IMG/VR virus record: IMGVR_UViG_3300031379_000006
Location: 1 to 42,942 of that record
Length of the DNA stretch: 42,942 nt
Strand: one strand, 5' to 3'
Origin: a virus
This document shows, one piece after another, positions 124 to 34,570 of this stretch (position 1 is its first letter; each line of letters opens with the position of its first letter). Below the pieces are notes generated by a model. That model was not told where the DNA came from and searched no databases. It saw only the letters and a program-made list of their open reading frames with translations. Position numbers and translations under genes: made by a program.

Positions 124-330
124 CTATTGCGTACGTAATCCGTGCTGGTTACCGTATGCATGAACACCTTTAGGCCTCTGATATAGTGTTAAGCTATGTA
201 TTCTGCAAAACTCATCCAATACACTACTGTCACCTTTGTAACATGGGTCTAATATACCCTGTGATTGCTTGTAAACTAAACCATTAACTACCTTGTAATC
301 AATGCCATTTAAGTTAAATTTGTCTTTCAT
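124..330 (-). CDS. small protein of unknown function, 68 aa
   Basis: I do not recognise a family. The N-terminal third (KFNLNGIDYKVVNGLVYKQ) aligns with the protein at 5390-5554 (KFYHNNIRYKVIGGLLYTQ), so the two are paralogues with an N-terminal beta-hairpin pattern. The rest is polar with two cysteines. It lies between two tRNA-like elements (83-109 and 356-414) on the same strand, downstream of the 507-1178 gene. The start follows an AT-rich leader. Function unknown. Confidence 0.7.
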   Translation of the reverse strand: MKDKFNLNGIDYKVVNGLVYKQSQGILDPCYKGDSSVLDEFCRIHSLTLYQRPKGVHAYGNQHGLRTQ

Positions 331-355
331 TATAATTGTATTTAATTAAAAGTCG

Positions 356-414
356 TGCCAGTAAAGGGATTCGAACCCTTCGCCCTTATTATTTCAGGCT
401 GCCCGTTAACTGGC
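356..414 (-). tRNA. truncated tRNA-like element without a D arm, Phe-like loop
   Basis: Read on the minus strand, GCCAGTT pairs with TACTGGC (six of seven pairs) and encloses a perfect T arm (AAGGG, loop TTCGAAT, CCCTT), ending in discriminator A. Only 27 nt separate the acceptor from the T arm, against about 40 in a normal tRNA, so a D arm cannot fit. The insert contains CTGAAAT, like a tRNA-Phe (GAA) anticodon loop, but its stem is weak. It may be a decayed tRNA-Phe or a D-armless tRNA-like RNA. Confidence 0.45.
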
Positions 415-506
415 ATTATTATTGTGTAAATGCATATTAGGACGTACTACTCATGCATAGCTTATACACTTTTGCTTTTATATACCGACGTCCCGGCGGC
501 TGTTGA

Positions 507-1178
507 CTAAAAATCAAGATAATAAGGTAATTCAGTGTTTCTGCCTTCTTTTCTCCACAATACCCAGGTAGCTGATTGTAAAATCAGTGGATTGACTTTA
601 AGCTTTGCAGCTGTCCATCTATAGCATTCAACTAAGAACTTGTACTGTCCGGCAGTTAGCTGTAAATACTTCTCTTCACCCTTTGTGATTTTCCTGCCCA
701 GGGCAATAGATATTGCGTGTCTATCCATTGTCAAAGATATTGCTTTGTTAGGATATAAGATATTTAGAAAGAATGCACTTGTCTTTTTGCCTTTCAGGAT
801 ATCTAAAATTGCATCATCGCTGCCATCGCTTAATAAGATAGCCGCTGCTTTGCGAGCATTGGCTTTTAAGCATGCCATATGATCAACTATTATCCACACG
901 TTCAATAACTTAGAGTCTTCAATCAATTCACGTGCCAATTTCTTATTCCGATTCCAATGTACCATCGGACTCAGGGCTGCAATTACACCGCACGCCCTGG
1001 CAACGTCTAAATGATATCCATCATTGCTAGGTGCTATATTAGCCAACCCGTGTGCAAAATCATTTGCAGCCTTATACCAGTCAAAACGGTCCGTCTCATT
1101 GGTTGCGTCCCATACTTTCAGGATATTGTTCTTTACCTGGGTACGGGTGTACTGTTTATTATAAAATTGTTGTTCCAT
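507..1178 (-). CDS. HhH / DNA-glycosylase-like phage protein, 223 aa
   Basis: Motif pattern matches a phage family with a helix-hairpin-helix, glycosylase-like helical fold: an ALSP motif at residues 68-71 followed by W75 and N77, a GKK turn at 130-132 (the hairpin of an HhH), and a TMDRHA segment around 150-155 where such proteins keep a conserved aspartate. The activity is unproven; DNA base excision or simple DNA binding are both possible. Its ATG overlaps the stop of the 1178-1369 gene by one base (TAATG), so the two are translationally coupled. The family assignment is from memory of motifs, not a search. Confidence 0.55.
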   Translation of the reverse strand: MEQQFYNKQYTRTQVKNNILKVWDATNETDRFDWYKAANDFAHGLANIAPSNDGYHLDVARACGVIAALSPMVHWNRNKKLARELIEDSKLLNVWIIVDHMACLKANARKAAAILLSDGSDDAILDILKGKKTSAFFLNILYPNKAISLTMDRHAISIALGRKITKGEEKYLQLTAGQYKFLVECYRWTAAKLKVNPLILQSATWVLWRKEGRNTELPYYLDF

Positions 1179-1369
1179 TATTTACGTTTTAAAGTTATTT
1201 CTTTATAGTTACCAGCACCGCTTTGTTTTAATACGCGGACTGTAGCACCGCCGTAAGTCAAGGTGTAAACCACACCCTTAAATTTGAACTGTGATCCATT
1301 ATGAAAGAAACGGGTAATTTCAAACAGATCTTGTACTTCCTGATTTGTAAACCGTGTTTGTTGTTCCAT
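1178..1369 (-). CDS. small protein of unknown function, 63 aa
   Basis: Unrecognised. The N-terminal part is helical and the C-terminal half looks like beta strands (FKFKGVVYTLTY). This resembles the F-x-G-x-x-Y pattern of other small proteins in the window (124-330, 4927-5121, 5390-5554), but too weakly to claim homology. It is the first gene of a two-gene unit with 507-1178, coupled by TAATG. Its start lies in the 47-bp repeat also found at 25-71. Confidence 0.65.
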   Translation of the reverse strand: MEQQTRFTNQEVQDLFEITRFFHNGSQFKFKGVVYTLTYGGATVRVLKQSGAGNYKEITLKRK

Positions 1370-1407
1370 GTTACTAAGATATTAGAGGTTTATAATATGT
1401 AATAATT
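1361..1407 (-). repeat. 47-bp start-region repeat, copy 2
   Basis: Partner of 25-71. It contains the start codon (1367-1369 in plus coordinates) and leader of the 63-residue gene; both ends of the repeat are identical to copy 1. Confidence 0.6.
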
Positions 1408-1428
1408 GTGAATCTTATTGCTCTCGAT

Positions 1429-1500
1429 GCATAAGGCCTGTAAAGTAATTACACTCTACTACCTGATAAGATCCGATTTAACTGTTTACAGGCCTTATGC
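1429..1500. repeat. perfect 16-bp inverted repeat with 40-nt loop
   Basis: GCATAAGGCCTGTAAA at 1429-1444 is exactly complementary to 1485-1500. It sits just upstream of the leftward gene starting at 1369. No U-run follows on either strand, so a simple intrinsic terminator is less likely than a structured RNA stem, attenuator or protein site. Confidence 0.8.
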
Positions 1501-1790
1501 CGTTTCTCTTATTGTTCCCGGTCGCTCTGTGTTCCGGGGATCTCGTAGCTAACTCGTAGTTAACACCACCAGCTGCTTGTGCTGGTCTGTAGTGTATCTT
1601 TTCAATTGCGGCTGCCTGCCCTGCTCACATCCCGGCGACCCGGGCTGCGCTCTCATGTGTCCTGTTGATATGATTACCACTTACTAACCTACATCCCTAT
1701 GGTACGCGTACCAAATTTGTCTACAGGTCCCCGGTGGGCTTTCACATCTCAGCATGTCAACGAACTGATTGCAATTACGTAATTAATAGT
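1501..1790. ncRNA. candidate structured non-coding RNA (strand undetermined)
   Basis: This block is clearly more GC-rich than its AT-rich surroundings and contains hairpins in series: CCCGG/CCGGG (1517-1538), ACCAGC/GCTGGT (1568-1586), CACAT-CCCGG-loop-CCGGG-ATGTG with a 10-nt bulge (1626-1659) and GGTACGCGTACC (1701-1712). No gene-like reading frame covers it. Large ornate phage RNAs (GOLLD, ROOL) are known to occur near tRNA genes, which is the reason for the idea, but I cannot recognise either consensus here. Confidence 0.3.
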
Positions 1791-1946
1791 GAAAGGTTAA
1801 AATGCTATGTGTCAAGGCGTTAACAAATAGCTGATATCATATGTTATTGATACTGAGCGTGTTGTTGACCTTATTTAGAATCATTCAAAGGTTATAAAAT
1901 AATTTAAAATTAGTTGATGTAACGGCCTGTATTGCCCATGCCCAGT

Positions 1947-2026
1947 GGGCTGCAGAGCATATGTTAAAAAACAAACTAAATGTTTAGGTGAGTGTAGCAT
2001 AATGATACACTTACGCTCTACAGCCC
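1947..2026. repeat. nested inverted repeats (cruciform-like)
   Basis: The outer arms GGGCTGCAGAGC (1947-1958) and GCTCTACAGCCC (2015-2026) pair at 11 of 12 positions. The inner arms GTGAGTGTA (1988-1996) and TACACTTAC (2006-2014) pair at 8 of 9. The inner right arm directly abuts the outer right arm. Confidence 0.65.
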
Positions 2027-2131
2027 AGTGAATAGGTTATCCGGGCCTATTTAGAATAATTCTATCTAATCGTAGTATAATTGTGATATTGTGTACCAGG
2101 TAACATATAATTCTGATTAAATAGTTATTAA

Positions 2132-2180
2132 TATTAGGTTACAGTCTAATATTACTGGTGTATTAGGTTACAGCCTAATA
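2132..2180. promoter_or_regulatory. two tandem palindromic sites, 29 bp apart
   Basis: TATTAG-N8-CTAATA occurs starting at 2132 and again at 2161, with nearly identical spacers (GTTACAGT and GTTACAGC). Two close copies of one palindrome are typical of a dimeric regulator binding site. The regulator is unknown. Confidence 0.5.
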
Positions 2181-2192
2181 TTACTTGTAGTA

Positions 2193-2310
2193 TGACATAA
2201 TGGCAGGTCTGGGTATGGGCAGCATGACATAATGGCAGTAGTTTACCCTTATTCTATGACATAATGGCAGTGTATTTGCCCCTATTTTGTGACATCATGA
2301 CATATTGTCA
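2193..2310 (+). repeat. iteron-like repeats TGACATAATGGCAG, 32-bp period
   Basis: Exact copies begin at 2193, 2225 and 2257, each 32 bp from the last. A degenerate copy (TGACATCATGACA) begins at 2290, next to the palindrome ATGACATATTGTCAT (2297-2311). All copies have the same orientation. A period of about three helical turns would place bound proteins on one face of the DNA, as in replication iterons or operator arrays. Confidence 0.75.
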
Positions 2311-3014
2311 TGTACGAAGACCTTCGTAGTACGTGTCATTAATGCTATGAATGCGTACTGCTGTACTGCCCATGGATAGGGGCTTGTGAGCGTAGCTCTG
2401 TGTACCCTATGAACAGGGGCCTGTAGAGCATGTGAACTATCCGCCGCGCAGGTTTATTTAATTAATTTTATTTAATTTAGATATTGGTATTTCTCCCCGC
2501 ACAGGCAGGCTGTATTATACCTATCCTCCTCAGGCCCAGGCCACTACGCGTCTACTTAACATAATAATAGTTATAGGACTAATTGACCTAACAGGCTGTG
2601 AGTCAGTTAAGAACGTAATAGGGGACCCTACCCTATATAGCCAAGAATTCAACCGAGTTTCCTTCACAAAGAGGCCCCCCCTATACACCCCAAACAGTCC
2701 ACTAAGCATGCTTTTATATATTATTGGGTCCCATACTCAACGTTTACCACTAAATCAGCTTTACTGGCAAACGTTGGGTCCCATCTCCATACATGTTCAC
2801 GGCCCATGAACAAAGTTTATTATTGAACACAATAGGAATCCTATTTCTATTTGTATACATAAATGATGCAAAACAGAAACATAAAGTATAATATATAAAA
2901 TACCAACCGGGGGTTCGCGTCTGTTAACTGGTCCAAGTATCTAATCCTCTAACGACGAAAAGTTTGCAAAAACGTGCAGAATGTCGCAAGTATAGTATAT
3001 ATTCGCGACAAACA

Positions 3015-3060
3015 TGACAAAATGGCAGTGTTAATTCCAAAAAGCCTGACAAAATGGCAG
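3015..3060 (+). repeat. iteron-like repeats TGACAAAATGGCAG, 32-bp period
   Basis: Two exact copies begin at 3015 and 3047, again 32 bp apart. They differ from the 2193-2270 copies at one base (A for T at position 6). They end 45 bp before the TATCTTTG box of the tRNA array, so they could regulate that promoter. Confidence 0.75.
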
Positions 3061-3105
3061 TAGTTATTTATAATCATTCTATGCGGTACTTTCAAATATT
3101 ATGTT

Positions 3106-3113
3106 TATCTTTG
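3106..3113 (+). promoter_or_regulatory. Bacteroidota-type -7 box (TATCTTTG) for the tRNA array
   Basis: TATCTTTG matches TAnnTTTG and lies five bases before the first tRNA, so transcription would start near its 5' end. No good TTTG lies 20 bp upstream; the 32-bp-phased repeats may bind an activator instead. Confidence 0.5.
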
Positions 3114-3117
3114 TACC

Positions 3118-3190
3118 GTTGTCTGTAGCTCAGAGGCAGAGCGTCGGGTTGTGATTCCGAAGGTCGAGATTTCGAAATTCTCCAGGCACC
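3118..3190 (+). tRNA. tRNA-His (GTG)
   Basis: Cloverleaf: acceptor from TTGTCTG with CAGGCAC, D arm GCTC/GAGC, anticodon arm TCGGG-TTGTGAT-TCCGA, T arm GAGAT-TTCGAAA-TTCTC. The extra 5' G (3118) opposite discriminator C (3190) is the tRNA-His identity element. The first acceptor pair and the last T-stem pair are mismatched. Confidence 0.8.
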
Positions 3191-3213
3191 CTTAAAACAA
3201 TAGAAATAATGAA

Positions 3214-3291
3214 ATGGAATATGTAATTTTTAATCAAGACTGGTTGGACATACCAATCCAGGATTATCCTGTTAATAATATAGCGGGGTAG
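3214..3291 (+). CDS. possible 25-residue peptide gene ending inside tRNA-Met
   Basis: An ATG at 3214 opens 25 codons (beginning MEYVIFNQDWL, ending NNIAG) in the gap between tRNA-His and the first tRNA-Met. The stop TAG (3289-3291) is formed by bases 8-10 of that tRNA, exactly as for the gene at 3999-4676. The repeated arrangement makes it more credible than its length alone would. Function unknown; it could be chance. Confidence 0.3.
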   Translation: MEYVIFNQDWLDIPIQDYPVNNIAG

Positions 3292-3360
3292 AGCAGTTGG
3301 TAGCTCGTTGGGCTCATATCCCAAAGGTCGTCATAAACGGTTCGAATCCTACCCCCGCTA
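3282..3360 (+). tRNA. tRNA-Met-like (CAT), abnormal T stem
   Basis: Acceptor AGCGGGG/CCCCGCT is perfect, D arm is GAGC/GCTC and the anticodon arm is TTGGG-CTCATAT-CCCAA. The 3' half of the T arm (TTCGAAT, CCTAC) is normal, but its 5' strand should be about GTAGG; instead 11 nt (GTCATAAACGG) stand there and pair at only two positions. The gene is 79 nt long. It may be non-functional or carry a small insertion. Confidence 0.6.
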
Positions 3361-3469
3361 CAACATATGATAGGCATTGTAAGCTACGTGACCCGTCTTT
3401 CTCCCGGGGATCTGCATGCACCAGAGGACAACCGTTAAGACAACCACAGCCTATTGACGGGGGATCTTT

Positions 3470-3510
3470 GCCGGAGACTGGGCATGGGGGTTCGATTCCT
3501 CACTCCGGCA
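3470..3510 (+). tRNA. acceptor/T-arm minihelix, tRNA-like, no anticodon arm
   Basis: GCCGGAG pairs perfectly with CTCCGGC, followed by discriminator A and C. A T arm (GGGGG, loop TTCGATT, CCTCA) lies directly beneath. Only nine bases (ACTGGGCAT) replace the D and anticodon arms. The shape is the coaxial half of a tRNA that RNase P, RNase Z and CCA-adding enzyme recognise. It is either an internally deleted tRNA or a deliberate minihelix. Confidence 0.45.
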
Positions 3511-3516
3511 CTATGT

Positions 3517-3589
3517 GGCCTTATCGTCTATCGCGTAGGACGTCAGGTTTTCATCCTGGAAAGTGTAGGTTCAAATCCTTCCTTCAGCG
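3517..3589 (+). tRNA. tRNA-Glu-like (TTC), unpaired acceptor stem
   Basis: D arm GTCT/GGAC, anticodon arm TCAGG-TTTTCAT-CCTGG (anticodon TTC, 3550-3552) and T arm GTAGG-TTCAAAT-CCTTC closely resemble tRNA-Glu. The acceptor strands GGCCTTA and CTTCAGC pair only at the first position, so a mature acceptor stem cannot form as written. Probably a decaying tRNA-Glu gene, unless the transcript is repaired or edited. Confidence 0.5.
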
Positions 3590-3613
3590 CAACACAATCC
3601 TTGGAGAAGTGTA

Positions 3614-3689
3614 ACGGGAGTAGCTTAAACCATGGGCCAGAGCGTCGGCGGAAGAGCCGGAGGGGGAGGTTCAAATCCTCTCTCCCGTA
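3614..3689 (+). tRNA. tRNA with Ser/Phe-like anticodon (GGA or GAA)
   Basis: Acceptor ACGGGAG/CTCCCGT and T arm GGAGG-TTCAAAT-CCTCT are sound. The D stem is GCTT/GAGC with an unusually long 13-nt loop. The anticodon stem TCGGC/GCCGG closes a loop of only six bases (GGAAGA) that lacks U33, so the anticodon is ambiguous between GGA (Ser) and GAA (Phe). The short variable loop argues against a standard tRNA-Ser. Confidence 0.55.
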
Positions 3690-3691
3690 CT

Positions 3692-3853
3692 ATGATAAAT
3701 CAAATAATAGAAATTATCCTTCAGGCTTTTAATGAAGTAAGCCGAGAAGTGGCAATAAAGTTTATTATTGATTGGCATGAAGAAGATTATACAAAATATC
3801 CATATAAATTTTGGAGTAAGGTTTTTGATGAATGGAAATCTAAACAGGAATAG
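3692..3853 (+). CDS. small protein of unknown function, 53 aa
   Basis: Unrecognised. It is helical, aromatic and charged (start MINQIIEIILQAF, end DEWKSKQE). The open frame extends upstream into the tRNA at 3614-3689, so the ATG at 3692, two bases after the tRNA, is the sensible start. The next gene begins three bases after its stop. Confidence 0.6.
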   Translation: MINQIIEIILQAFNEVSREVAIKFIIDWHEEDYTKYPYKFWSKVFDEWKSKQE

Positions 3854-3855
3854 CA

Positions 3856-4002
3856 ATGAAAACAGGAGATATTTGCCCTCACTGCGGAATACTTTTATTA
3901 AAAAAGATTAAAGGTAAAAAACCACATACTATTGATTATTTACAGTGTCCTTATTGTAATTCAATATTTGAATGTGCTATAGAAAATAATAAACCCAAAT
4001 GA
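3856..4002 (+). CDS. zinc-ribbon protein, 48 aa
   Basis: Two CxxC knuckles, CPHC at residues 7-10 and CPYC at 31-34, make a short zinc ribbon. Such phage proteins often bind nucleic acids or proteins, but no partner is evident. A basic stretch (KKIKGKK) lies between the knuckles. Its stop overlaps the start of the sulfotransferase-like gene (ATGA), so the two are translationally coupled. Confidence 0.65.
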   Translation: MKTGDICPHCGILLLKKIKGKKPHTIDYLQCPYCNSIFECAIENNKPK

Positions 4003-4676
4003 AAAACATTGTAATTATTGCCTGTTGCCGGTCAGGGCACAACTTTGTCCGACAAATGATCCAATCCTGGTCACCGGAGTTACTCATAATCAATTTTGAG
4101 GACGTACAGCCCCAGGACTACGCACAAGCTCAAAAAAGCATCATTATGGGAACCTGCCAAATTGACAGTGATTTCAGTAGTCACAAAATAAACTGGGCGA
4201 ATAAAACATTTAATATAATCGTTTTCAGGGACTTACTGAACTGGTGGGCTTCTTATTTAAAATGGATACCTAAACCTCTATCGGACTATAAGCGGGACCT
4301 AGCCTTTAAAATCTGGACTTCTCAATTAGAAGAAGCATATACAGGTAAATATCTTAATTACAGCCTATTAGTGGGATACGAAATTTTTCATAGTTCCCGG
4401 TCATTTCGATTAATGGTATGCGATACCCTGAAAGGAGAATATAATGAAGATATGTTAGATATAGTAACCCCACAAGGAAAAGGATCTTCATTTGATGGCC
4501 TAATCAAGAAAGGATTTGAAATGGCTACGGATTTCCGATATAAACAGATAATGGAGTCTGATCTTCGTGGTGAGTACATTAGGGGCCTCCGAGAGAATCC
4601 GGATGCGATAGAGGCTTATAAACGATTTCTTCCTTTAACAGTTGACCAGGAAAACGTTTGCAACCGGGGCCTGTAG
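3999..4676 (+). CDS. sulfotransferase-like P-loop protein, 225 aa
   Basis: The N-terminus has the shape of a sulfotransferase 5'-phosphosulfate loop: a hydrophobic strand, then CRSGHNFVRQM at residues 10-20, like the RSGT-N pattern of the family. The 3'-phosphate-binding strand follows at 72-85 (IIVFRDLLNWWAS) with R77, D78 and S85 in the expected places. PAPS-dependent sulfotransferases move sulfate to carbohydrates, small molecules or proteins; the substrate here is unknown. The length suits a minimal family member. It is coupled to the upstream zinc-ribbon gene, and its stop TAG is bases 8-10 of the tRNA-Met at 4667. A related P-loop kinase is an alternative. Confidence 0.55.
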   Translation: MKNIVIIACCRSGHNFVRQMIQSWSPELLIINFEDVQPQDYAQAQKSIIMGTCQIDSDFSSHKINWANKTFNIIVFRDLLNWWASYLKWIPKPLSDYKRDLAFKIWTSQLEEAYTGKYLNYSLLVGYEIFHSSRSFRLMVCDTLKGEYNEDMLDIVTPQGKGSSFDGLIKKGFEMATDFRYKQIMESDLRGEYIRGLRENPDAIEAYKRFLPLTVDQENVCNRGL

Positions 4677-4740
4677 CTCAGTTGGTTAGAGCATCTGACT
4701 CATAATCAGACGGTCAGGGGTTCAAGTCCCTTCAGGCCCA
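4667..4740 (+). tRNA. tRNA-Met (CAT)
   Basis: Complete canonical cloverleaf: acceptor GGGCCTG/CAGGCCC, D arm GCTC/GAGC, anticodon arm TCTGA-CTCATAA-TCAGA, T arm AGGGG-TTCAAGT-CCCTT, discriminator A. CAT could serve as elongator Met or lysidine-modified Ile. The first ten bases overlap the end of the upstream gene. Confidence 0.92.
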
Positions 4741-4743
4741 CAT

Positions 4744-4819
4744 TGACCTCTGGTGTAACATTTGGTAACACGTTGGATTTTGAATCCAAAGAATCCAGGT
4801 TCGAACCCTGGGGGGTCAG
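4744..4819 (+). tRNA. tRNA-Gln (TTG)
   Basis: Complete cloverleaf: acceptor TGACCTC/GGGGTCA, D arm GTGT/ACAC, anticodon arm TTGGA-TTTTGAA-TCCAA, T arm CCAGG-TTCGAAC-CCTGG, discriminator G. It lies three bases after tRNA-Met. Confidence 0.92.
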
Positions 4820-4822
4820 CAT

Positions 4823-4896
4823 ACTGGTGTAGCTCAGTTGATTAGAGCATCTGCCTGATAAGTAGGAGGTCGGTGGTTCAAATCCGCCCATCAGTA
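4823..4896 (+). tRNA. tRNA-Ile (GAT)
   Basis: Complete cloverleaf: acceptor ACTGGTG/CATCAGT, D arm GCTC/GAGC, anticodon arm TCTGC-CTGATAA-GTAGG, T arm GGTGG-TTCAAAT-CCGCC, discriminator A. Last tRNA of the array. Confidence 0.9.
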
Positions 4897-4926
4897 CAAT
4901 TTAACTTTTCTATAATAATATTTAAA

Positions 4927-5121
4927 ATGGTATCAACAAATTTACGGCGTAACAATTTTCCTCATATTCCAAGAATAGGGGAAAAGTTTAATTATGAAGG
5001 ACAACGTTATACGGTAACGTCTATCCCTACTTTTTCCTCAATAGTAGGAGAAAATGTCAAACCAGCCTCTGGTGAATTTTCTTCAGTGAAGATCACCGCA
5101 AATCAAGCAGAATGGTTTTAA
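4927..5121 (+). CDS. small beta-rich protein of unknown function, 64 aa
   Basis: Unrecognised. The central IGEKFNYEGQRYTV segment looks like a beta hairpin and resembles other small phage proteins in this window. The open frame runs back into tRNA-Ile, so the ATG at 4927 is preferred. The stop overlaps the next gene by ten bases, which suggests coupling. Confidence 0.65.
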   Translation: MVSTNLRRNNFPHIPRIGEKFNYEGQRYTVTSIPTFSSIVGENVKPASGEFSSVKITANQAEWF

Positions 5122-5369
5122 CAATAGGAGAATTTTACGGAGAAAAAGATATTTGCGGGCCGTTAGAATCTAAGCGGACTAATTATGTCCAGAAGCAGAC
5201 AAAAACTCAACAATCACTGAAAACAATTGATAAAATCCAAAACGAACACGACAAGCTGGAGAATGTCGCTAAAAGCATAGAAAAAGAAGCGGCTAATTTA
5301 GACGACAAACTTAAAGAGGCTAAAATCGGGCGCGATATAGTCTACGCTCGTATAGACACCATTAAGTAG
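5112..5369 (+). CDS. small coiled-coil protein, 85 aa
   Basis: From about residue 25 to the end the protein is charged and helical, rich in K, E and D with regular hydrophobic spacing, which predicts a long coiled coil. Such small phage proteins often act as adaptors or inhibitors of host proteins, but nothing here shows a target. It overlaps the preceding gene by ten bases. Confidence 0.6.
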   Translation: MVLTIGEFYGEKDICGPLESKRTNYVQKQTKTQQSLKTIDKIQNEHDKLENVAKSIEKEAANLDDKLKEAKIGRDIVYARIDTIK

Positions 5370-5389
5370 ATATTAAAAAAGGACAAAAA

Positions 5390-5554
5390 ATGAACAAATT
5401 CTATCATAACAACATACGTTATAAAGTTATCGGTGGACTACTTTATACTCAACCTGGCGGTGACACAGCTCCAATATTCCCAGTTTATAATTCTCAAGAC
5501 CTGGCACTCATACGGAGAGCTGAATCATACGGTGCTAAATTTCATAATCAATGA
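5390..5554 (+). CDS. small protein, paralogue of the 124-330 product, 54 aa
   Basis: The N-terminal part (KFYHNNIRYKVIGGLLYTQ) matches the same region of the 68-residue protein encoded at 124-330 on the other strand. The C-terminal part differs. The ATG follows an A-rich leader (GGACAAAAA). It is the last plus-strand gene before the terminators at 5584-5863. Function unknown. Confidence 0.6.
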   Translation: MNKFYHNNIRYKVIGGLLYTQPGGDTAPIFPVYNSQDLALIRRAESYGAKFHNQ

Positions 5555-5583
5555 CACCTGGGGTACCCATCCCATAAAACGTC

Positions 5584-5633
5584 AACGATCTCCCTACGAG
5601 TAATGATATAGTGCCACTCGTAGGGAGATCGTT
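5584..5633. terminator. perfect 17-bp hairpin between converging genes
   Basis: AACGATCTCCCTACGAG (5584-5600) is exactly complementary to 5617-5633, with a 16-nt loop. It lies 29 bases after the last rightward gene. No U-run follows, so it may act as an RNA 3'-end stabiliser or a factor-assisted terminator. Confidence 0.65.
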
Positions 5634-5676
5634 CGTTAGGGGCGCTTAAAACCGATTTTAATTCGAATTCTTCTAT

Positions 5677-5721
5677 AAAATTTGCAGAAAGTGTCGTTTT
5701 TCGGTATTTTCTGTAAATTTT
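5677..5721. terminator. bidirectional intrinsic terminator-like hairpin
   Basis: AAAATTTGCAGAAA (5677-5690) pairs with TTTTCTGTAAATTTT (5707-5721) with one G-T pair. The A-tract on one side and T-tract on the other would act as U-runs in both directions. It separates rightward genes from the leftward protease gene. Confidence 0.55.
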
Positions 5722-5725
5722 TTAT

Positions 5726-5773
5726 ATTCATTAAATATTCATTAAATATTCATTTAGTGATACTTTAATGAAT
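5726..5773. repeat. 11-bp tandem repeats ATTCATTAAAT plus an inverted copy
   Basis: Two exact copies (5726-5736 and 5737-5747), one diverged copy (5748-5758), then TTAATGAAT in inverse orientation (5765-5773). It may be a protein site or simple-sequence drift in an AT-rich gap. The rest of 5555-5880 holds only the three hairpins. Confidence 0.6.
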
Positions 5774-5829
5774 ATATTACTTCTCTAGTGGCGATAAACC
5801 CCATTTTCTTAGGTCTAACGTTACAGGAT

Positions 5830-5863
5830 TAGTAAAATTACTGCAATAATGGTAATTTTACTA
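5830..5863 (-). terminator. terminator-like hairpin after the protease gene
   Basis: TAGTAAAATTAC (5830-5841) is exactly complementary to 5852-5863, with a 10-nt loop. It begins 17 bases past the stop of the leftward gene at 5881. Confidence 0.55.
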
Positions 5864-5880
5864 TCCATATTGAAATTTAA

Positions 5881-7062
5881 TTAACGATTTATGGGTTCAT
5901 ATCCTAGAACCTTGGCTACCGCCTCTTCAATATGAGTACGAAATTGTTCGATACGCTTAAAGAAACGTTGTACTTTATATATCGGAATCTTTGCTTTAGT
6001 ATACCAATCATCTAGCGTATCCACTACATGACAATACACGGCGTCTGGAGATAGTCCGCCAATTTGTACCTTTGAATTAATATAAGATGAATTCTTTAAT
6101 TCATAATATAATTTAGTAGGGGTAATAGGATATTCCAGATTACTATTATGGAAGTTATATTTTGTATTATCAAAATATTGATTATCCCTAATTCCATATA
6201 ATACCCAATTAAATTCACTGGTTATATATCCTCCACTATATCCATACCACCCATCCGTGTAGCCGCCTGGATAGGATGAATAAGAAGCTTCATTCCAATT
6301 GGAGGAAGTTAGAATAGTTGTACGGAACCCAGAAAATTTATTTTGACCTACTGCCATTGATCCAGAATGACAAGTCATCCAATATATTTCACGCTGCTTA
6401 AAATCATCAATCTGATTTATGGCTTTATAAATATCTTCTTTCTCTTGATAAGACTGGTTGGTTCCCCCAATATATGCTCTATATGAATTATATTCATCCC
6501 CCCTGGAACCGTAGGGTATTCCACCATGGCCTACGACCCACTGAATAGTTATTTTATCATGTTTTGTCACATAAAAATCAATATCTTTTAATCCGCTTTT
6601 TATGGTTTCCCAGCTATTATCATAATCAATAATAGTTTTTATTCCGGGAAAATAGGTTTTGATATTATAATGATTATATTGGCTATCGAAATCATGGCCA
6701 GGTCCTTGACCATAAAAAACAAATATATTTTTATGGGTATATCCCTGATCTATATAACTTTTATAAGTCATCAATAAATCATACCAATATTCTGAATGAA
6801 TCATCTCATTATCATATCGTGTTTCACCCCCGGATATTAATACTGCGTATTTTTCACGGGGCTGACTAAAATGTTGGTATAACCAATACGATGTACCTCC
6901 AGCCAAACTTATCGATAAACAAAATATTAAAATTAATACTATCTTTCTAATTCGGAGCCAGCCCCGAACAAAAAAACGTAAAGACTTCTGCAGGGCATTT
7001 ACAAGATACGCCCATAGCTTTTTTAATCGAATTGTTTTTATGCGCTTTAATATTGTTTTCAT
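5881..7062 (-). CDS. membrane-anchored legumain/caspase-fold cysteine protease, 393 aa
   Basis: The fold pattern fits clan CD peptidases, closest to C13 legumain: a first strand KYAVLISGGE (71-80), a second strand after a helix (NIFVFYGQG, 112-120), then a hydrophobic strand ending in the catalytic histidine motif HGG (WVVGHGG, H179), and a strand ending in the catalytic cysteine (IYWMTCHSGS, C231), as in the legumain ACESGS motif. Residues 1-40 are strongly basic and 41-62 form one membrane segment; the positive-inside rule puts the protease domain outside the cytoplasmic membrane. The gene has its own promoter (7101-7132) and terminators on both sides, so it is transcribed separately. Substrate unknown; envelope proteins, host lysis or exclusion are possibilities. 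The residues 232-345 insert is rich in Y, G and S. Confidence 0.7.
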   Translation of the reverse strand: MKTILKRIKTIRLKKLWAYLVNALQKSLRFFVRGWLRIRKIVLILIFCLSISLAGGTSYWLYQHFSQPREKYAVLISGGETRYDNEMIHSEYWYDLLMTYKSYIDQGYTHKNIFVFYGQGPGHDFDSQYNHYNIKTYFPGIKTIIDYDNSWETIKSGLKDIDFYVTKHDKITIQWVVGHGGIPYGSRGDEYNSYRAYIGGTNQSYQEKEDIYKAINQIDDFKQREIYWMTCHSGSMAVGQNKFSGFRTTILTSSNWNEASYSSYPGGYTDGWYGYSGGYITSEFNWVLYGIRDNQYFDNTKYNFHNSNLEYPITPTKLYYELKNSSYINSKVQIGGLSPDAVYCHVVDTLDDWYTKAKIPIYKVQRFFKRIEQFRTHIEEAVAKVLGYEPINR

Positions 7063-7100
7063 GTCACTTAATATAATAAAAAATTAAAAAATTGGAGTGT

Positions 7101-7132
7101 ACAAGATACATCTTTTTTGCTAGTATGTCAAA
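7101..7132 (-). promoter_or_regulatory. promoter of the protease gene
   Basis: On the minus strand TTTG (7132-7129) is followed by exactly 20 bases and TATCTTGT (7108-7101), a near match to TAnnTTTG. The start point would lie about 30 bases before the ATG. Confidence 0.5.
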
Positions 7133-7158
7133 TTAAAATTCAGTGCATAAAATAAAAA

Positions 7159-7189
7159 CCCCCTCCCCGGCATGTAGCCCAAGGAGAGG
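7159..7189 (-). terminator. intrinsic terminator after the holin-like gene
   Basis: On the minus strand CCTCTCC pairs with GGGGAGG (one T-G), with a short inner GGC/GCC, and is followed by GGGTTTTTATTTT. It separates the operon ending at 7220 from the protease gene. Confidence 0.7.
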
Positions 7190-7219
7190 AAAAAACATAG
7201 CATATGAAATAACTCTTTG

Positions 7220-7447
7220 TTATGCTTTTGCTGCAACGTCTTTTGCGAAAATGGCAATGATACCCGCTACGATCTCAACCACACTTTCCACACCCGCGCC
7301 CAGGTTAGTGACCAGCCCTTGAAGCTGACCTGCTTCGTCCAAACTTACTCTTCCGGGGAAGATATAAGGAAATAGACCCACAACGATTAACAATAAACCA
7401 ACCACCGTAGTGATGGGATTTTTCTTAAAATTCAAACTGAATTTCAT
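7220..7447 (-). CDS. probable holin, small two-segment membrane protein, 75 aa
   Basis: Two hydrophobic segments, about residues 11-30 and 54-70, joined by a short polar loop, with a basic N-terminus. Size and shape are those of class II holins, which pore or disrupt the inner membrane at lysis. No sequence signature identifies a named holin family, so this rests on topology and on neighbours (membrane protein, lipoprotein). It is the last gene of its transcription unit, just before the terminator at 7159-7189. Confidence 0.5.
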   Translation of the reverse strand: MKFSLNFKKNPITTVVGLLLIVVGLFPYIFPGRVSLDEAGQLQGLVTNLGAGVESVVEIVAGIIAIFAKDVAAKA

Positions 7448-7499
7448 AGTACAATAGATTTATAAAAGGATTTAATAATTCAATACAAAGATAATCATT

Positions 7500-7661
7500 T
7501 TATTTCTTAATACAATCATCCGCCTCAAATAAAATATCAACAATACACCTATCATCGTGTACATCAATACGATTTATTTGTGCAAACGGGGGTAACATGC
7601 CCTGGCTAATTAAAGCTCGTTCCATATCTGAAATTGTGTAAGTTTTAGTGTGCTTGTTCAT
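7500..7661 (-). CDS. small protein of unknown function, 53 aa
   Basis: Unrecognised. It begins MNKHTKTYTISDMERAL and ends in an acidic segment (EADDCIKK). The first half looks like a helix, the second like two beta strands. The 11-bp gap to the gene upstream and the same direction place it in the same operon as the holin-like gene. Confidence 0.5.
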   Translation of the reverse strand: MNKHTKTYTISDMERALISQGMLPPFAQINRIDVHDDRCIVDILFEADDCIKK

Positions 7662-7672
7662 GATTAATGATT

Positions 7673-7873
7673 TTAAAGGTCTAATTTTAATTGTCCATCA
7701 AATGGTTGTCTAAGTAAATGGCATTCCAATTTCCCCTCTGGGGAGTTTATAGATGCCTGGCTCAACGGTTCGGACGTCTGAGCTGCGGCGGCAAAACAGT
7801 CTTTCAGAAAGTCAACCCAACTGGGTACTTCTGATAACTTATGTGATTCGATTGTGATTACCCAATAGTTCAT
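7673..7873 (-). CDS. small protein of unknown function, 66 aa
   Basis: Unrecognised. A soluble alpha/beta protein beginning MNYWVITIESHKL. It starts two bases after the stop of the membrane protein gene at 7876, so it is co-translated with it. Confidence 0.55.
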   Translation of the reverse strand: MNYWVITIESHKLSEVPSWVDFLKDCFAAAAQTSEPLSQASINSPEGKLECHLLRQPFDGQLKLDL

Positions 7874-7875
7874 AT

Positions 7876-8307
7876 TTATAAGCTAAAGAATGCGGTACCC
7901 GCTAAAAACATCCAGACCAGTTTGGCGATCATGAAGTTCAATCCTGCAGGAAGGCCGAATTGATTAAACACCTTAAAAAATATCCGGTCAAATTTACCCT
8001 GGCCTAGATAGAAAGGATCTCCTGTAAGTCCCAAACTGATCCAATAGTCATGCAAGATCCACCAGAAAAATGCTGCAATGGTATATAATACGCCCATATG
8101 CCACCAAGGCAATGGGAATGAATATTTCCAGGTAATCAAACCAAATATGACTGCAAATTCAACCAGGTTCCATAACCACTTGGGTCGAAGCCAGGCTTTT
8201 TTACCGGATTTAATAAGTTTAAGATCCAAGGCTACTCCTACGGCAGCTGTGAAAGTGGTCGCAAATAGCGTCCACATAAGTAATTTAGCAAGTTCGTACC
8301 AATCCAT
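7876..8307 (-). CDS. integral membrane protein, about four segments, 143 aa
   Basis: Hydrophobic segments lie near residues 8-28, 48-64, 71-88 and 118-140 of the form starting at M(8307), with many tryptophans and charged loops. The frame is open to an earlier ATG at 8361, but that would overlap the upstream gene by 41 bases. The ATG at 8307 lies 13 bases after that gene's stop, follows AATACAACA and is preferred. Family not recognised; a role in the envelope, lysis or exclusion fits the neighbourhood. Confidence 0.6.
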   Translation of the reverse strand: MDWYELAKLLMWTLFATTFTAAVGVALDLKLIKSGKKAWLRPKWLWNLVEFAVIFGLITWKYSFPLPWWHMGVLYTIAAFFWWILHDYWISLGLTGDPFYLGQGKFDRIFFKVFNQFGLPAGLNFMIAKLVWMFLAGTAFFSL

Positions 8308-8320
8308 ATTGTTGTATTTA

Positions 8321-8782
8321 TTAATATTCGTTATTAATTGGTTGTAAAACTGTGAAACCAAGATCTCGCCAGGTTTGAACTATTGAATTTTTATCTTCAA
8401 TGATAAAAGCTGTATTCTTCGTCGTAATACCAGCTTCCTTAAGGAGTTCCGGCTTCACGATACTATCTGATCGATGGTCCTTTATAGACTTTCTCATAAG
8501 CAGCGGAGCCTTCCATAAACCAATATATTCATCAATCCAAGCCCGGGTTTTTTCTCTAAATGTCTCATTTCGGCTGGTGCAAAATACAATATGGTACTTA
8601 TTAGCTATTGCGAGTATTAAATCAATGACCACCCAAAGTGGTTTATCCAATTGACAGTCTTTGAATAATTCTGACCATGGCATCTCCTTAATAGGAGTAA
8701 CCTCCAGAAGCTGGAGAATCTTAGCTTGGCGAGTAGCGCTGTGAGCTACAGTACCATCGATATCTACTATTACATATTTCAT
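8321..8782 (-). CDS. HAD phosphatase, T4 Pnk-type 3'-phosphatase domain, 153 aa
   Basis: HAD motif I is D7-I-D9-G-T, motif II is TSR at 69-71, and EDK at 129-131 fits the acidic motif IV. The segment LLMR (94-97), DHRSD (102-106) and K110 is characteristic of the phosphatase half of phage polynucleotide kinase, which removes 3'-phosphates or 2',3'-cyclic phosphates from nicked RNA or DNA. The kinase half is absent; length matches the phosphatase domain alone. The enzyme is cytoplasmic. A nucleotidase of the same superfamily is the alternative. Confidence 0.75.
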   Translation of the reverse strand: MKYVIVDIDGTVAHSATRQAKILQLLEVTPIKEMPWSELFKDCQLDKPLWVVIDLILAIANKYHIVFCTSRNETFREKTRAWIDEYIGLWKAPLLMRKSIKDHRSDSIVKPELLKEAGITTKNTAFIIEDKNSIVQTWRDLGFTVLQPINNEY

Positions 8783-8792
8783 ATTTGTTGTT

Positions 8793-9392
8793 TTAAAGAT
8801 CTGAATACTCTAATTCCGGAAATTTTGACGCCGGTACCGGGCCGGTAAAGTAAAGTCTATAAGTTGTATACCCAAGTTTCTCAAGATCCTCCTCAGTTAC
8901 TGTAATTATATCATATTTATTATGATACCACCCTCCCATGTGTGATCCATTAGGAGATGATATCATTACAAGATTATGTGTATTCCACACTGAATCAGAT
9001 ATATACGGTCTGAATGAAGCCTGGGCCAGATCCAGTAGTTCAAATGCATCTATGTTAGATAGAAATGTACTATCAACTGTGATTACTGGGGGAATAGTAT
9101 CTTGAAAGAATACATCGAATGATACAGTATCCCGGTTATCTGATATATCCGTTGCAATGATATGGACCTCTACATAAGGATTATCGGTGTCTAATACAGT
9201 ACCGGCAATTGGAGTTTGAGTAATTATTGGTCCAGGACAATTATCTCTTACACGAAAGAAGGGAAGATAGTTCGGAAGGGCAGTTTCACAGCTATCCGTT
9301 GCATATACCGTTTGTGGCGGAACTCGCTGAGGCATAAGACAATTGCAGCTCACTAAAGTAGCAACCATCAAAATAAATAATAGTTTTTTCAT
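8793..9392 (-). CDS. lipoprotein with HYR-like domain, 199 aa
   Basis: A signal peptide ends in LVSC (Cys16), a standard lipobox, so the protein should be lipid-anchored in the envelope. Residues about 45-110 follow the HYR/Ig-like pattern common in Bacteroidota surface proteins (DNCPGP..TQTPIAGT, then VEVHIIATD). The rest is acidic and not recognised. The start overlaps the stop of the gene at 9389 (ATGA). Possible roles are outer-membrane disruption at lysis or blocking receptors; neither is shown by the sequence. Confidence 0.65.
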   Translation of the reverse strand: MKKLLFILMVATLVSCNCLMPQRVPPQTVYATDSCETALPNYLPFFRVRDNCPGPIITQTPIAGTVLDTDNPYVEVHIIATDISDNRDTVSFDVFFQDTIPPVITVDSTFLSNIDAFELLDLAQASFRPYISDSVWNTHNLVMISSPNGSHMGGWYHNKYDIITVTEEDLEKLGYTTYRLYFTGPVPASKFPELEYSDL

Positions 9393-10348
9393 CGTGTTAA
9401 GATTTGATCTTCTGGATGAACCTCATTCCAGATGGTTATTAATATATCTCCTTCAAGGCAATTGTATTGAGCCTCTTTATTGGTAAGGAACCTTATGGTT
9501 CTCCGACAAGCTTCATTAAGAAGAACACCCCAACGAGATCCGGTCGTCTCAAGATACATGAGGACCTGGTCTTTTGTAACCGTCATATCACCACACAGAA
9601 GACGTACAAGATAATTATGCTCACCAGCCATCTTCAAAATAATCTTACTCAACCAACGCTTACCAGGTGAATCCGGATTGATGTAATTTTGCCAAGCTAC
9701 AGTCTCAACTGAATAATATGGGTACATTTTTTCCCGAAGTTTGGCTTGTTTCTCTGTGACATCATAATTGATTCTGGACATTACAAAGTCTATTTGATTG
9801 AGTTCCGGAAGAGTGAAATTACCTCTTTTCAGTAACCAGGCATTCCATGCTTTGGCTAAGCCCATGATTGGAATTTCCAAGATATACCAGATAGTTCTCC
9901 ATCGTTTGTTGAGGATACCCTTCATCCAGGCCCACATATCAATAGTAAATGTATGTCTCTCTGAGATCCGCCAGGTTGAATATTTGATCATATCCTGAAG
10001 ACGGAGGAGAGCCTCATGTCGGCAATCTTCGACGCCGAAGTAAGCTAATAAAAGTAAACCAGTTACATGATCCCTGGACATATCACCAGTGCCCCATTCT
10101 ACGTGCGGGTGCCGGCGATACTGCATATGATATCTATGATCATTAGGACTTTCGAATTCTTTACGCATTAATTGCGTCATGGGTAATTCATAAAGATGAT
10201 AATCCCCCCAGGATTTATAGGCCCTGGCCATCCGGAATCCTACATCTCTCCAGGAATCGGAAACTCCATTAATTACAGCCATATAATGTGCATCAAAGAC
10301 AACATACGTATCCTTGGCTGATGGGTTAAATGTTGAGTATGTAGTCAT
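9389..10348 (-). CDS. phage protein of unknown function, helical, possibly glycosidase-like, 319 aa
   Basis: Not firmly recognised. It is largely helical and rich in W, H and R. The GDMSRDHVTGLLLLAYFG segment (about residues 88-105) resembles the SRD-x-helix start of alpha/alpha-barrel carbohydrate enzymes and of a phage family I recall only as uncharacterised. No signal peptide or membrane segment is evident. It is coupled to its neighbours by overlaps (TAATG upstream, ATGA downstream). A wall-degrading role would fill a gap in the lysis block but is only inference. Confidence 0.45.
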   Translation of the reverse strand: MTTYSTFNPSAKDTYVVFDAHYMAVINGVSDSWRDVGFRMARAYKSWGDYHLYELPMTQLMRKEFESPNDHRYHMQYRRHPHVEWGTGDMSRDHVTGLLLLAYFGVEDCRHEALLRLQDMIKYSTWRISERHTFTIDMWAWMKGILNKRWRTIWYILEIPIMGLAKAWNAWLLKRGNFTLPELNQIDFVMSRINYDVTEKQAKLREKMYPYYSVETVAWQNYINPDSPGKRWLSKIILKMAGEHNYLVRLLCGDMTVTKDQVLMYLETTGSRWGVLLNEACRRTIRFLTNKEAQYNCLEGDILITIWNEVHPEDQILTR

Positions 10349-11077: not shown

Positions 11078-11782
11078 TTACTTATTTACTTTAGGGGCCG
11101 GTTTCTTAGCTTTAGATTTAGCTTTAGGCTTAATCTCTTCAATCGAATTAGATACATTTGGATCTAACGCTGATGGAGGATTTCCGCCAAATCTGGTTTC
11201 AGCTGCATCAGTGACTGTGTACCCGGCAGGGTTCTGATCTGTAGTTACTGGCTCATAAATCTTGTCAACTCCATTGATAAGATTATCCGGCTCTGCATTT
11301 TCCTTTTTCAGATCCTCATCATCCTCCACAACGCGGAGTTTGGTATCTTCAGAATCAATAGCTACTGGATCTCCCATTACTTCAGGCATGTAGAACATAC
11401 CCAGACCCCCAACAAAAATGCTGGCAATGCCCATAAATAGATGATCCTTGAACTGTTCTTCAAAAGGAAGTTCGGCATAAGGAATCAAATTGGGATGAGT
11501 TTTTCTGTGCTGGCTATAAACCTTATCCTTGGTCCAGCCGGCGGCCTTCCTAGCCTCACACCAAGCTTGATGAGATGTTTCCGGGGTCTTGGGCTCTTTG
11601 ATCATACTGATGACAGCCTTGATGAGTCCCTGGCGCTCCTCCTCACGAATTTCTTCCCACGATAGATTCTGAATCTTACCGCCGATTGCGTCATTATATG
11701 CTCTATTGGCGCTGTGTATCACCTTAGCAATTAAACCGCAGCGAGCCTCAAAGGAGAGGTCTTGTAATTTCTTTGTTTCCAT
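11078..11782 (-). CDS. RyR-domain protein, 234 aa
   Basis: Residues about 10-115 match the phage version of the RyR domain: ANRAYNDAIG at 25-34, then W42, a TPETSHQAWCEARKAAGW block (67-84) and HPNLIPYAELPFEEQFKD (96-113). The domain was named from ryanodine receptors and is frequent in phages, where its ligand may be a nucleotide derivative; no biochemical role is established here. Residues 115-135 are hydrophobic, and the C-terminal 80 residues are acidic, then Lys/Pro/Ala-rich (KPKAKSKAKKPAPK), probably disordered. Confidence 0.75.
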   Translation of the reverse strand: METKKLQDLSFEARCGLIAKVIHSANRAYNDAIGGKIQNLSWEEIREEERQGLIKAVISMIKEPKTPETSHQAWCEARKAAGWTKDKVYSQHRKTHPNLIPYAELPFEEQFKDHLFMGIASIFVGGLGMFYMPEVMGDPVAIDSEDTKLRVVEDDEDLKKENAEPDNLINGVDKIYEPVTTDQNPAGYTVTDAAETRFGGNPPSALDPNVSNSIEEIKPKAKSKAKKPAPKVNK

Positions 11783-12457: not shown

Positions 12458-13174
12458 TTACTCTTTGGGTTTTTCTGACTGATCCGTTTCGCCATCTTCC
12501 GGTATTTTGGGTACCTGGATTTCCGGGAGTTTAAATTCTCTAGCCTTTGGCATCCCTTCTTGCTCTATACGATCATATTCACTATTAAGCCATGCCAGTG
12601 ATTGTACAAGGGATACATAAATTTGATTCATGATCGCATTTACGATCATTTGAACATAATTAAATTTTTCAGGATTATTTATAAATTCACCAAAATCTTC
12701 GGTAAGCAGATCTAATTCAGTGACCAGATTAAATACTTTATCTTTGTAAGAGGTTTTTTCCCAACCTTTTTCTCTAACATATTTGAGTTTGGTAAAACTA
12801 AATTTTCCATCACGACCACCCATTAAATCAACAAGTTTATCAAATAATTGATTAACGGAAAGAATATGATTAAGACAATCAGAAAGGGCAAGTGTATGTT
12901 TGGTATTGATAAGGTATTTAACCTCATTGTCAAGTTCGGTAAGCATTTGAGTGAAAGACCGGGAATTTTCATGAAGTGTTTGTTGTTCAATGGGAGAAAG
13001 CTTTTTGTACTTCTCCTCATCCTGCATAATTTCTCTCCATTCTGTCCAATGAATCAGACCTTTATTTCCGAGTTTATTATACTCTTCTACAGTTTTTTCA
13101 TTAATGTTCAGATTATCCAAAAAGGATGTAATGGTTCGTGATCTACCTTGTAACTGTAAAATTTGTTTTTTCAT
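12458..13174 (-). CDS. helical protein of unknown function, 238 aa
   Basis: Almost entirely alpha-helical by composition, with charged amphipathic segments throughout (for example LSPIEQQTLHENSRSF near 79-94) and a proline-rich, acidic tail (VPKIPEDGETDQSEKPKE). No membrane segment, signal peptide or catalytic motif is visible. It lies three bases from the HNH gene upstream. Function unknown. Confidence 0.6.
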   Translation of the reverse strand: MKKQILQLQGRSRTITSFLDNLNINEKTVEEYNKLGNKGLIHWTEWREIMQDEEKYKKLSPIEQQTLHENSRSFTQMLTELDNEVKYLINTKHTLALSDCLNHILSVNQLFDKLVDLMGGRDGKFSFTKLKYVREKGWEKTSYKDKVFNLVTELDLLTEDFGEFINNPEKFNYVQMIVNAIMNQIYVSLVQSLAWLNSEYDRIEQEGMPKAREFKLPEIQVPKIPEDGETDQSEKPKE

Positions 13175-16309: not shown

Positions 16310-17023
16310 ATGGGTAGACCACGGATTGATATGACAGGAAAAAGGTTCGGTGAGCTTACAGTGATAGAGTTTTCTCACATGCATAAGGACGCATATTGGA
16401 AATGTTTATGTGATTGTGGTAATGAGAAAGTTATACCCGGATATAATTTAAGAAACGGGCACACTAAAAGTTGCGGACACCTCAAAGGTAAGAATAGGCT
16501 TGAATTAAAGGGTCGAAAGTTTAATAGGCTTACAGTGATAGAGTTTTCTCACATGCATAAAAATAAATCATTCTGGAAATGTTTATGTGATTGTGGTAAT
16601 GAGAAAGTTATAAATGGTTCAGCTTTAGTTGCTGAATTAACTACAAGTTGTGGCTGTTTGCAAAAAGACCAGCAATCGCTTCCTGAAGGAATAGCTGCTC
16701 GTAACCGTGTTATGCTTTGGCACAAAAACAGTGCAAAAAAGAGAAATTTAGAACAGGCGTTAACCGACGAGCAAATCCTAATATTACATAAGGGAAATTG
16801 TCATTATTGTGGGTCACCGCCATCAAATATATGTCACCCGTCAGGGGCTAATGGATCATACATCTATAATGGAATTGATCGTAAAGATAATAGTGAAGGA
16901 TATACAATCAATAATTCGGTATCGTGCTGTTTTGTGTGTAACGCGGCAAAAGGCACACTCGGATATGATAAATACTTAAAACATATAAAAGCAACATATT
17001 TACATTTAATAAAAATTAAATAA
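16310..17023 (+). CDS. HNH endonuclease with two zinc-ribbon-like repeats, 237 aa
   Basis: Two copies of a W-x-C-x-C-D-C-G domain (about residues 8-58 and 66-118) with CGH and CGC ends, as in the DNA-binding part of phage homing endonucleases, precede a Cys-type HNH nuclease (CHYCGSP, IDRKDNSEGY, CCFVCNAAKG). The repeats are near identical in DNA too (for example GTGATAGAGTTTTCTCACAT twice), so the duplication is recent. The gene sits between the RHH gene and the terminase block, a usual target of homing. Confidence 0.8.
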   Translation: MGRPRIDMTGKRFGELTVIEFSHMHKDAYWKCLCDCGNEKVIPGYNLRNGHTKSCGHLKGKNRLELKGRKFNRLTVIEFSHMHKNKSFWKCLCDCGNEKVINGSALVAELTTSCGCLQKDQQSLPEGIAARNRVMLWHKNSAKKRNLEQALTDEQILILHKGNCHYCGSPPSNICHPSGANGSYIYNGIDRKDNSEGYTINNSVSCCFVCNAAKGTLGYDKYLKHIKATYLHLIKIK

Positions 17024-34215: not shown

Positions 34216-34267
34216 TGGTAAATTAATTGTATATTGCATATTGATGTGTTAGATAAAGTAAAACGTG

Positions 34268-34570
34268 ATGAAAACTAGGAAAACAACAAAGATTACAAAA
34301 TTGCAGCTAGTTAACGAACTGTCTGAGTATACGACGATTACAAAGGTCCAATGTGACTTTATGTTTGATTCGTTGCTTGCGATAGTTAAGGAACACTTGC
34401 TGAATGAAGATGAAGTAGAATTAAAAACCTTGGGGCGCTTTTGTTTTGCGCAGAAGGGTGCGCGTCCGTCAAACATGACTGGTGATACCATCCCTGCCCA
34501 TAAGCAGCTTAAATTTAGAGTTGCTGACCGACTTAGTCGGGTAATAAGAGTGGACTCAAGAGAATATTAA
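34268..34570 (+). CDS. HU/IHF-family DNA-bending protein, 100 aa
   Basis: Residues about 10-98 follow the HU/IHF fold: two helices (KLQLVNELSEYTTITKVQCDFMFDSLLAIVKEHL region), then VELKTLGRFCF, an arm region (KGARPSNMTGDTIPAHKQLKF) and a C-terminal helix. The GTG at 34265 could also start translation; ATG at 34268 is preferred. Such genes sit in crAss-like structural modules. It may condense DNA or be packaged. Confidence 0.85.
   Translation: MKTRKTTKITKLQLVNELSEYTTITKVQCDFMFDSLLAIVKEHLLNEDEVELKTLGRFCFAQKGARPSNMTGDTIPAHKQLKFRVADRLSRVIRVDSREY

Follow-up and report, generated by a model that had tools for sequence, protein, structure and literature searches.

A putative membrane-anchored, C13-related cysteine peptidase in otherwise unrelated phages

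Why would a phage encode a membrane-anchored peptidase of the caspase fold, and where might such a gene have come from? The question is raised by an ORF in a virus record of 42,942 bases, the whole of which is referred to here as the window. An earlier note had described this ORF as a legumain-type protease with a basic N-tail, a single membrane segment, its own promoter and terminators on both sides.

Gene product and family assignment

The ORF, at 5881..7062, is real, although the earlier note gave it no strand and it is here corrected to minus. It begins with an ATG and encodes 393 aa, read here as a C13-related clan CD cysteine peptidase with an N-terminal membrane anchor. The gene is present in five viral records that hold three distinct proteins: the window type, which recurs 100% identical in two IMG/VR contigs (loci L002 and L003), and the proteins of loci L004 and L006, respectively 78% and 55% identical to it in the alignment. 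Over 17 kb that include the protease, the longer contig with locus L002 (G005, 54,855 bases) and the window are 99.9% identical. Both the basic tail and the single membrane segment are found: residues 1-39 contain 12 K/R and no D/E, and two overlapping hydropathy windows make up one segment, best placed at codons 41-59 (6886..6942, minus), with a predicted N-in, C-out orientation. This tail and segment would tether the protease to the inner membrane so that its catalytic domain lies in the periplasm, and on the predicted topology the enzyme in all likelihood faces the envelope. A cytoplasmic role was discarded on the positive-inside rule, which would place the domain elsewhere. A virion or prohead protease was also discarded, as the protein is membrane-anchored and encoded outside the structural gene block.

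The peptidase domain, as aligned and modelled, covers residues 64-352 (6007..6873, minus). The predicted catalytic residues are at the positions claimed for them, H179 in GHGG (codon 6526..6528, minus) and C231 in TCHSGS (codon 6370..6372, minus), where the Cys aligns with that of legumain ACESG. Together with G180 and G234 they are invariant in an alignment of 14 domains, and His179 and Cys231 would form the catalytic dyad. The reading frame is under purifying selection against both L004 (pN 0.12, pS 0.41) and L006 (pN 0.31, pS 0.73). A caspase-like protein without activity, whose role is confined to binding, would be in keeping with S1 residues unlike those of legumain and with the low confidence of the structural model described below. 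We consider this very improbable given the invariance of His and Cys in 14/14 domains, the purifying selection and the position of the bacterial relatives near other peptidase genes. From its sequence, the protein is very probably an active clan CD peptidase.

Searches of family databases with the protease gave no significant match in Pfam (best RNase_H at 0.045) or PHROGs (best 0.16) and zero matches in NCBIfam and PADLOC at 0.1. None of the three distinct phage proteins matches PF01650 at a maximum E of 10, and we therefore file them as C13-related and not as members of Pfam C13. In the MEROPS sense, C13 takes in peptidase units with a significant relation to legumain, either directly or via intermediates, and such relations were found: a direct match to legumain (0.0018), bridging proteins at loci L010 and L023/L038, and a C13 HMM match at 4e-9. 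The direct match comes from a comparison of a 7-sequence profile with the PDB, which gave 24 matches up to E 10. Legumain, VPE or GPI transamidase account for 14 of these, metacaspases for eight and other proteins for two; 22 of the 24 belong to clan CD, and legumain is the best match, with the Cys motif aligned. The bridges are bacterial. The relative at L010 scores 23.1 bits against Pfam C13 (cut-off 22.8), those at L007 and L008 score 15.7 and 15.2, and the L009 relative is absent from the Pfam C13 matches. L023/L038, a second protein in the genome of L009, matches both our A3 profile (E 2.8e-27) and Pfam C13 (44.9 bits). The HMM was built from six bacterial C13-type proteins without the subfamily, with the database size set to 100,000; its E value for the window ORF is 4e-9, as against 3.4 for the best among 5000 shuffles. 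A3 had been the first to pick up four of the six proteins, among them one for which there is no Pfam score; with that protein left out the window ORF scores 1.9e-9 and the shuffles 0.43. In a profile-profile comparison the three phage proteins match the C13 set with a probability of 97.7 and E 2e-12. The relation to clan CD and C13 that the earlier note expected from sensitive profile searches was thus recovered, and the evidence supports a clan CD protease whose nearest family is C13.

Structure prediction points the same way. The domain model (residues 64-352, seven sequences) is of low confidence, with pLDDT 45.6 and pTM 0.49, and a full-length model from three sequences is poor (pLDDT 40.1). 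In the domain model the predicted strands 108-115 and 160-167 finish immediately ahead of H116 and C168, which correspond to H179 and C231, as a caspase-like sheet would have it. The strand-helix order, by our reading, appears to fit such a sheet, and H179-G180 and C231 would fit the clan CD hallmark of a His-Gly and a Cys at strand ends. At E<=0.001 Foldseek matches the model to 23 chains, every one of them of legumain type or from GPI transamidase. The 50 matches listed by VIA-align are all from clan CD (C13 42, metacaspases 6, caspases 2), and among the matches listed the best is GPI transamidase, with Z 10.8 and 4.2 A over 217 residues. The predicted fold thus resembles legumain, as had been anticipated, and also GPI transamidase. 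Since the model is of low confidence, the fold match counts as support, not proof, and it agrees with the sequence evidence.

The rank of GPI transamidase raises the question of whether the phage enzyme might be a transpeptidase or ligase that cuts proteins and joins them to an envelope acceptor instead of degrading them. The catalytic chains of GPI transamidase (PIGK/GPI8), which are themselves C13, are among the best structural matches of the phage domain model, and this subunit, like the phage protease, is membrane-anchored. The eukaryotic enzyme is a multi-subunit complex, however, and its anchor is at the other end. The legumain-type chains (Z 10.3, 9.9 and 9.7) are practically level with it, so the ranking says little, and neither partner subunits nor an acceptor were seen. 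A ligase of this kind is therefore very improbable. The likeness to legumain itself includes a fold match over most of the protease domain and a common Cys motif, C-x-SGS; no counterpart of the legumain C-terminal control domain was recognised. Among the predicted viral structures of BFVD, all six matches at E<=0.001 are giant-virus caspase or metacaspase proteins and none is of phage origin. The giant-virus proteins are annotated as C14 and their hosts are eukaryotic, whereas the phage protease is C13-related.

Bacterial relatives and the S1 pocket

The bacterial relatives are ORFs of about 700 aa from Aminicenantes (L007), Chrysiogenales (L008), Prolixibacteraceae (L009) and Anaerolineales (L010). 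Their domain is 25-29% identical to that of the window and has in common with it HSEYWYD, GHG, MTC-x-SG and E91. Together the bacterial and phage proteins make up a rare C13-like subfamily. At E<=0.001 the A3 profile finds matches in 8/296 genomes of the phylum of L009 and 4/199 of that of L007, both source genomes included, and all other matches are shorter than L007 and L009, and much weaker. In the two phyla searched, Pfam C13 itself was found in 19/395 (17 above the cut-off) and 2/201 genomes. A tree of 14 domains puts the three phage proteins in one group (support 100/99). A 97/96 branch sets the six C13-type proteins apart, with the phage group on the same side of it as the bacterial subfamily; a long branch next to the phage proteins, L024, drew a warning from the program.

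The bacterial proteins continue into a long C-terminal half, where three of the four have a weak match to CARDB, while the phage form consists of the domain on an anchor. An N-terminal hydrophobic stretch is present in three of the four relatives and is below threshold in L009. By our reading of the sequence, the gene lies directly after a gene for a secreted propeller-like protein at all four loci; Pfam, run on the propeller-like gene of L007 only, gave weak, sub-threshold matches of propeller type. A second peptidase is encoded nearby. At L007, L008 and L009 an M14-type carboxypeptidase precedes the propeller-like gene (159 bits in Pfam for L007 only, by sequence resemblance for L008 and L009), and at L010 we read the neighbouring peptidase as subtilisin-like, so that a peptidase cluster appears to recur. 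Because of the N-terminal stretch, the propeller-like neighbour and the nearby second peptidase, the probable ancestor is a secreted peptidase whose catalytic domain, placed on an anchor, would make up the phage form. The gene may thus derive from secreted bacterial C13-like peptidases by loss of the long C-terminal half, the direction of descent being the one that we favour.

The S1 pocket separates this subfamily from legumain. In clan CD, S1 specificity is described in a 2015 review as set by helix 1 (L1), L4 and L5 (PMC4357240). The S1 residues given there for legumain are Arg44, on helix 1, His45, Ser216 and Asp231, while acidic ones are given for MALT1, and in its Table 2 the P1 residue of paracaspases is arginine (PMC4357240). 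In the phage protease the place of the C13 S1 Arg is taken by E91 (codon 6790..6792, minus), an equivalence with Arg44 based on sequence alignment only; in the HMMER alignment with plant legumain a gap opens beside E91. Position 91 is E in all seven subfamily members, three phage and four bacterial, and G in L024; of the six bacterial C13-type proteins, five have R there and the sixth has A. At position 283 all three phage proteins have E, as do 4/6 C13-type proteins. By alignment, then, the subfamily does not have legumain's Arg44 and zwitterionic pocket. The label of legumain-type given in the earlier note holds in the sense of C13-related but not of legumain proper, since there is a Glu at the S1 Arg position and GHG in place of DHG. 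Because of this Glu in 7/7 subfamily members we infer that the protease may prefer a basic P1; an acidic S1 pocket formed by E91, and probably E283, would favour Arg or Lys at P1 over Asn.

The gene unit and its distribution among phages

The presence of a promoter belonging to the gene, as previously proposed, is consistent with the sequence TTGACA-17-TATCTT at 7131-7103 (minus), 40 bases 5' of the ATG. Promoter-like matches of this kind are no commoner in the window than in shuffles (15 found, mean 15.2), and this one recurs at the corresponding position in the related phage L004. Terminators had been claimed on both sides. Upstream the claim holds: an intrinsic terminator at 7190-7159 (minus, z -3.4) lies between the protease and the preceding gene, and L004 has a terminator hairpin with a different stem at the same place (z -3.5). 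Downstream there are two structures, neither of which has the standard form of a minus-strand terminator. One is a long hairpin at 5575-5655 (minus, z -6.84) of 24 pairs with one 2-base bulge and without a clear T-run, kept in L004, which may serve in termination, processing or recombination; the other is an A/T-rich 20-pair stem at 5677-5721, found on the plus strand. Between the gene and the hairpin one block of 100 bases is down to 43% identity with L004.

When viral records were scanned again from the phage sequences, the same five contigs came back, and with a bacterial relative or the bridging C13-type proteins as starting point no viral relative was found; as such scans work from short patterns, they may overlook more distant copies in phages. 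Among INPHARED phages there is no match to the protease (E<=1) or to the portal or a 772-aa ORF (1e-5). The viral records may be fragments. The contig of L006, of 44 kb, has nothing else in common with the window by tblastn at 1e-3: no window ORF of at least 50 aa matches it except the protease, and neither does any ORF of at least 60 aa from the additional 14 kb of the longer copy. Its copy of the gene starts 24 bases after an ORF of 3254 aa and has a different promoter arrangement. This ORF (252-10016, plus) reads like a multi-domain polyvalent protein.

Divergence from L004 also differs between the protease and its neighbours. The dS of the protease is 0.59, while three neighbouring genes have 2.5, 3.1 and a saturated value. 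Raw identity at four-fold sites is 65/101 for the protease and 189/455 for ten other genes (Fisher p 3.9e-5). When corrected for composition the protease has the highest of 11 values, 0.46, followed by 0.37, 0.21 and 0.21. As the runner-up, gene 12458-13174, is also raised, the pattern does no more than support a recent exchange confined to the protease. The GC content of the protease is 0.336 and that of the window 0.401, but two of the ten other window genes compared are equally low (0.333 and 0.338), so a low GC would not by itself point to foreign origin. Two features expected of a moron, a promoter-like site with an upstream terminator and presence in an otherwise unrelated phage, were both found. 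Since L006 shares the protease alone, the unit is conserved and the divergence from L004 has this pattern, the protease is probably a mobile accessory gene that passes between phages, and it may travel as a self-contained unit.

Possible roles in the infected cell

The protease ends a minus-strand block of non-structural genes that includes a metallophosphoesterase, HNH endonucleases, a polynucleotide-kinase-like phosphatase and membrane proteins; by our reading the block also has a lipoprotein-like ORF. The upstream neighbour (7220..7447, minus) encodes 75 aa with two hydrophobic segments and is holin-like by size and layout only.

Such a neighbour invites the idea, also raised in the earlier note, that the gene acts in lysis, the protease weakening envelope proteins late in infection with the small two-segment protein as holin. 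The same type of 75-aa ORF is directly upstream in L004, and the catalytic domain would lie in the periplasm. Yet in both phages a terminator lies between this ORF and the protease, and the L006 protease, in an otherwise unrelated phage, follows the 3254-aa ORF instead. The longer copy, moreover, has an Amidase_3 (46.6 bits) at about 13 kb and a glucosaminidase (50.6 bits) at about 18 kb from the protease, and the amidase gene is followed by one for a 242-aa protein with a single anchor. The protease is thus not encoded together with these enzymes, as it would be in a holin-endolysin-spanin cassette; only the holin-like neighbour, behind a terminator, is close to it. Because the peptidoglycan enzymes are elsewhere the case for lysis is weakened, and we regard it as unlikely.

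Limited cleavage of host envelope proteins appears to be the most economical role for a tethered peptidase of this kind. In the infected cell the protease would cut one or a few envelope proteins, and the likeliest benefit would be a cell surface or DNA-entry machinery altered against competing phages, that is, superinfection exclusion; target and benefit are the least certain parts of this proposal. Cleavage in the envelope might also serve another end, such as removal of a defence or stress-signalling protein in the host membrane or periplasm, or of a receptor so that progeny virions are freed from debris. That an accessory membrane-anchored gene occurs in otherwise unrelated phages, and that it closes a non-structural block with a lipoprotein-like ORF and a membrane protein, would suit such functions. 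The two phage proteins scanned gave zero matches to PADLOC families, however, and the gene context suggests no target, so that we think a role of this sort about as unlikely as one in lysis. Superinfection exclusion is our tentative choice over other envelope functions, a preference that falls somewhat short of an even chance. Taken as a whole, the reading of a mobile, membrane-anchored C13-like peptidase that cuts envelope proteins, most likely for superinfection exclusion, comes close to an even chance. More speculatively, and we would not call it likely, the gene may represent a hitherto undescribed class of phage weapon, a legumain-related, tethered periplasmic peptidase switched to a basic P1 preference and carried as a cassette between unrelated phages, that re-cuts the envelope and so excludes rivals.

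The enzyme family is known. In Table 1 of the 2015 clan CD review, family C13 is given as absent from viruses (PMC4357240), and in a literature search of mostly open-access papers none of the papers listed deals with a C13-type enzyme in a phage. As far as searched, the novelty lies in an enzyme of this family in phages, in its form as a bare domain on a membrane anchor, in the subfamily marked by E91 and in the occurrence in otherwise unrelated phages. The last of these suggests that caspase-fold peptidases may be phage cargo directed against the bacterial envelope. The sequence offers a direct test, with two catalytic residues, one specificity residue (E91) and three natural variants.

Several other features of these genomes may be recorded. 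A 225-aa ORF between tRNA genes (3999-4676, plus) reads to us like a P-loop sulfotransferase and has no PHROG match. The protein encoded at 11078-11782 (minus) of the window has a RyR domain (Pfam, 35.9 bits). In L004 an RNA ligase (8070-9068, plus; 63.5 bits) is found beside the polynucleotide-kinase-like gene; between the genes of the window that match those around it there is no ligase ORF. A sub-threshold CrAss_Ring_2 match (19.5 against 27 bits) at 26622-27299 and an HU/IHF protein at 34265-34570, both on the plus strand, hint that the phage could be a distant crAss-like podovirus. Finally, blastn finds two direct repeats of about 85 bp, 91% alike, at 16354-16435 and 16528-16612.
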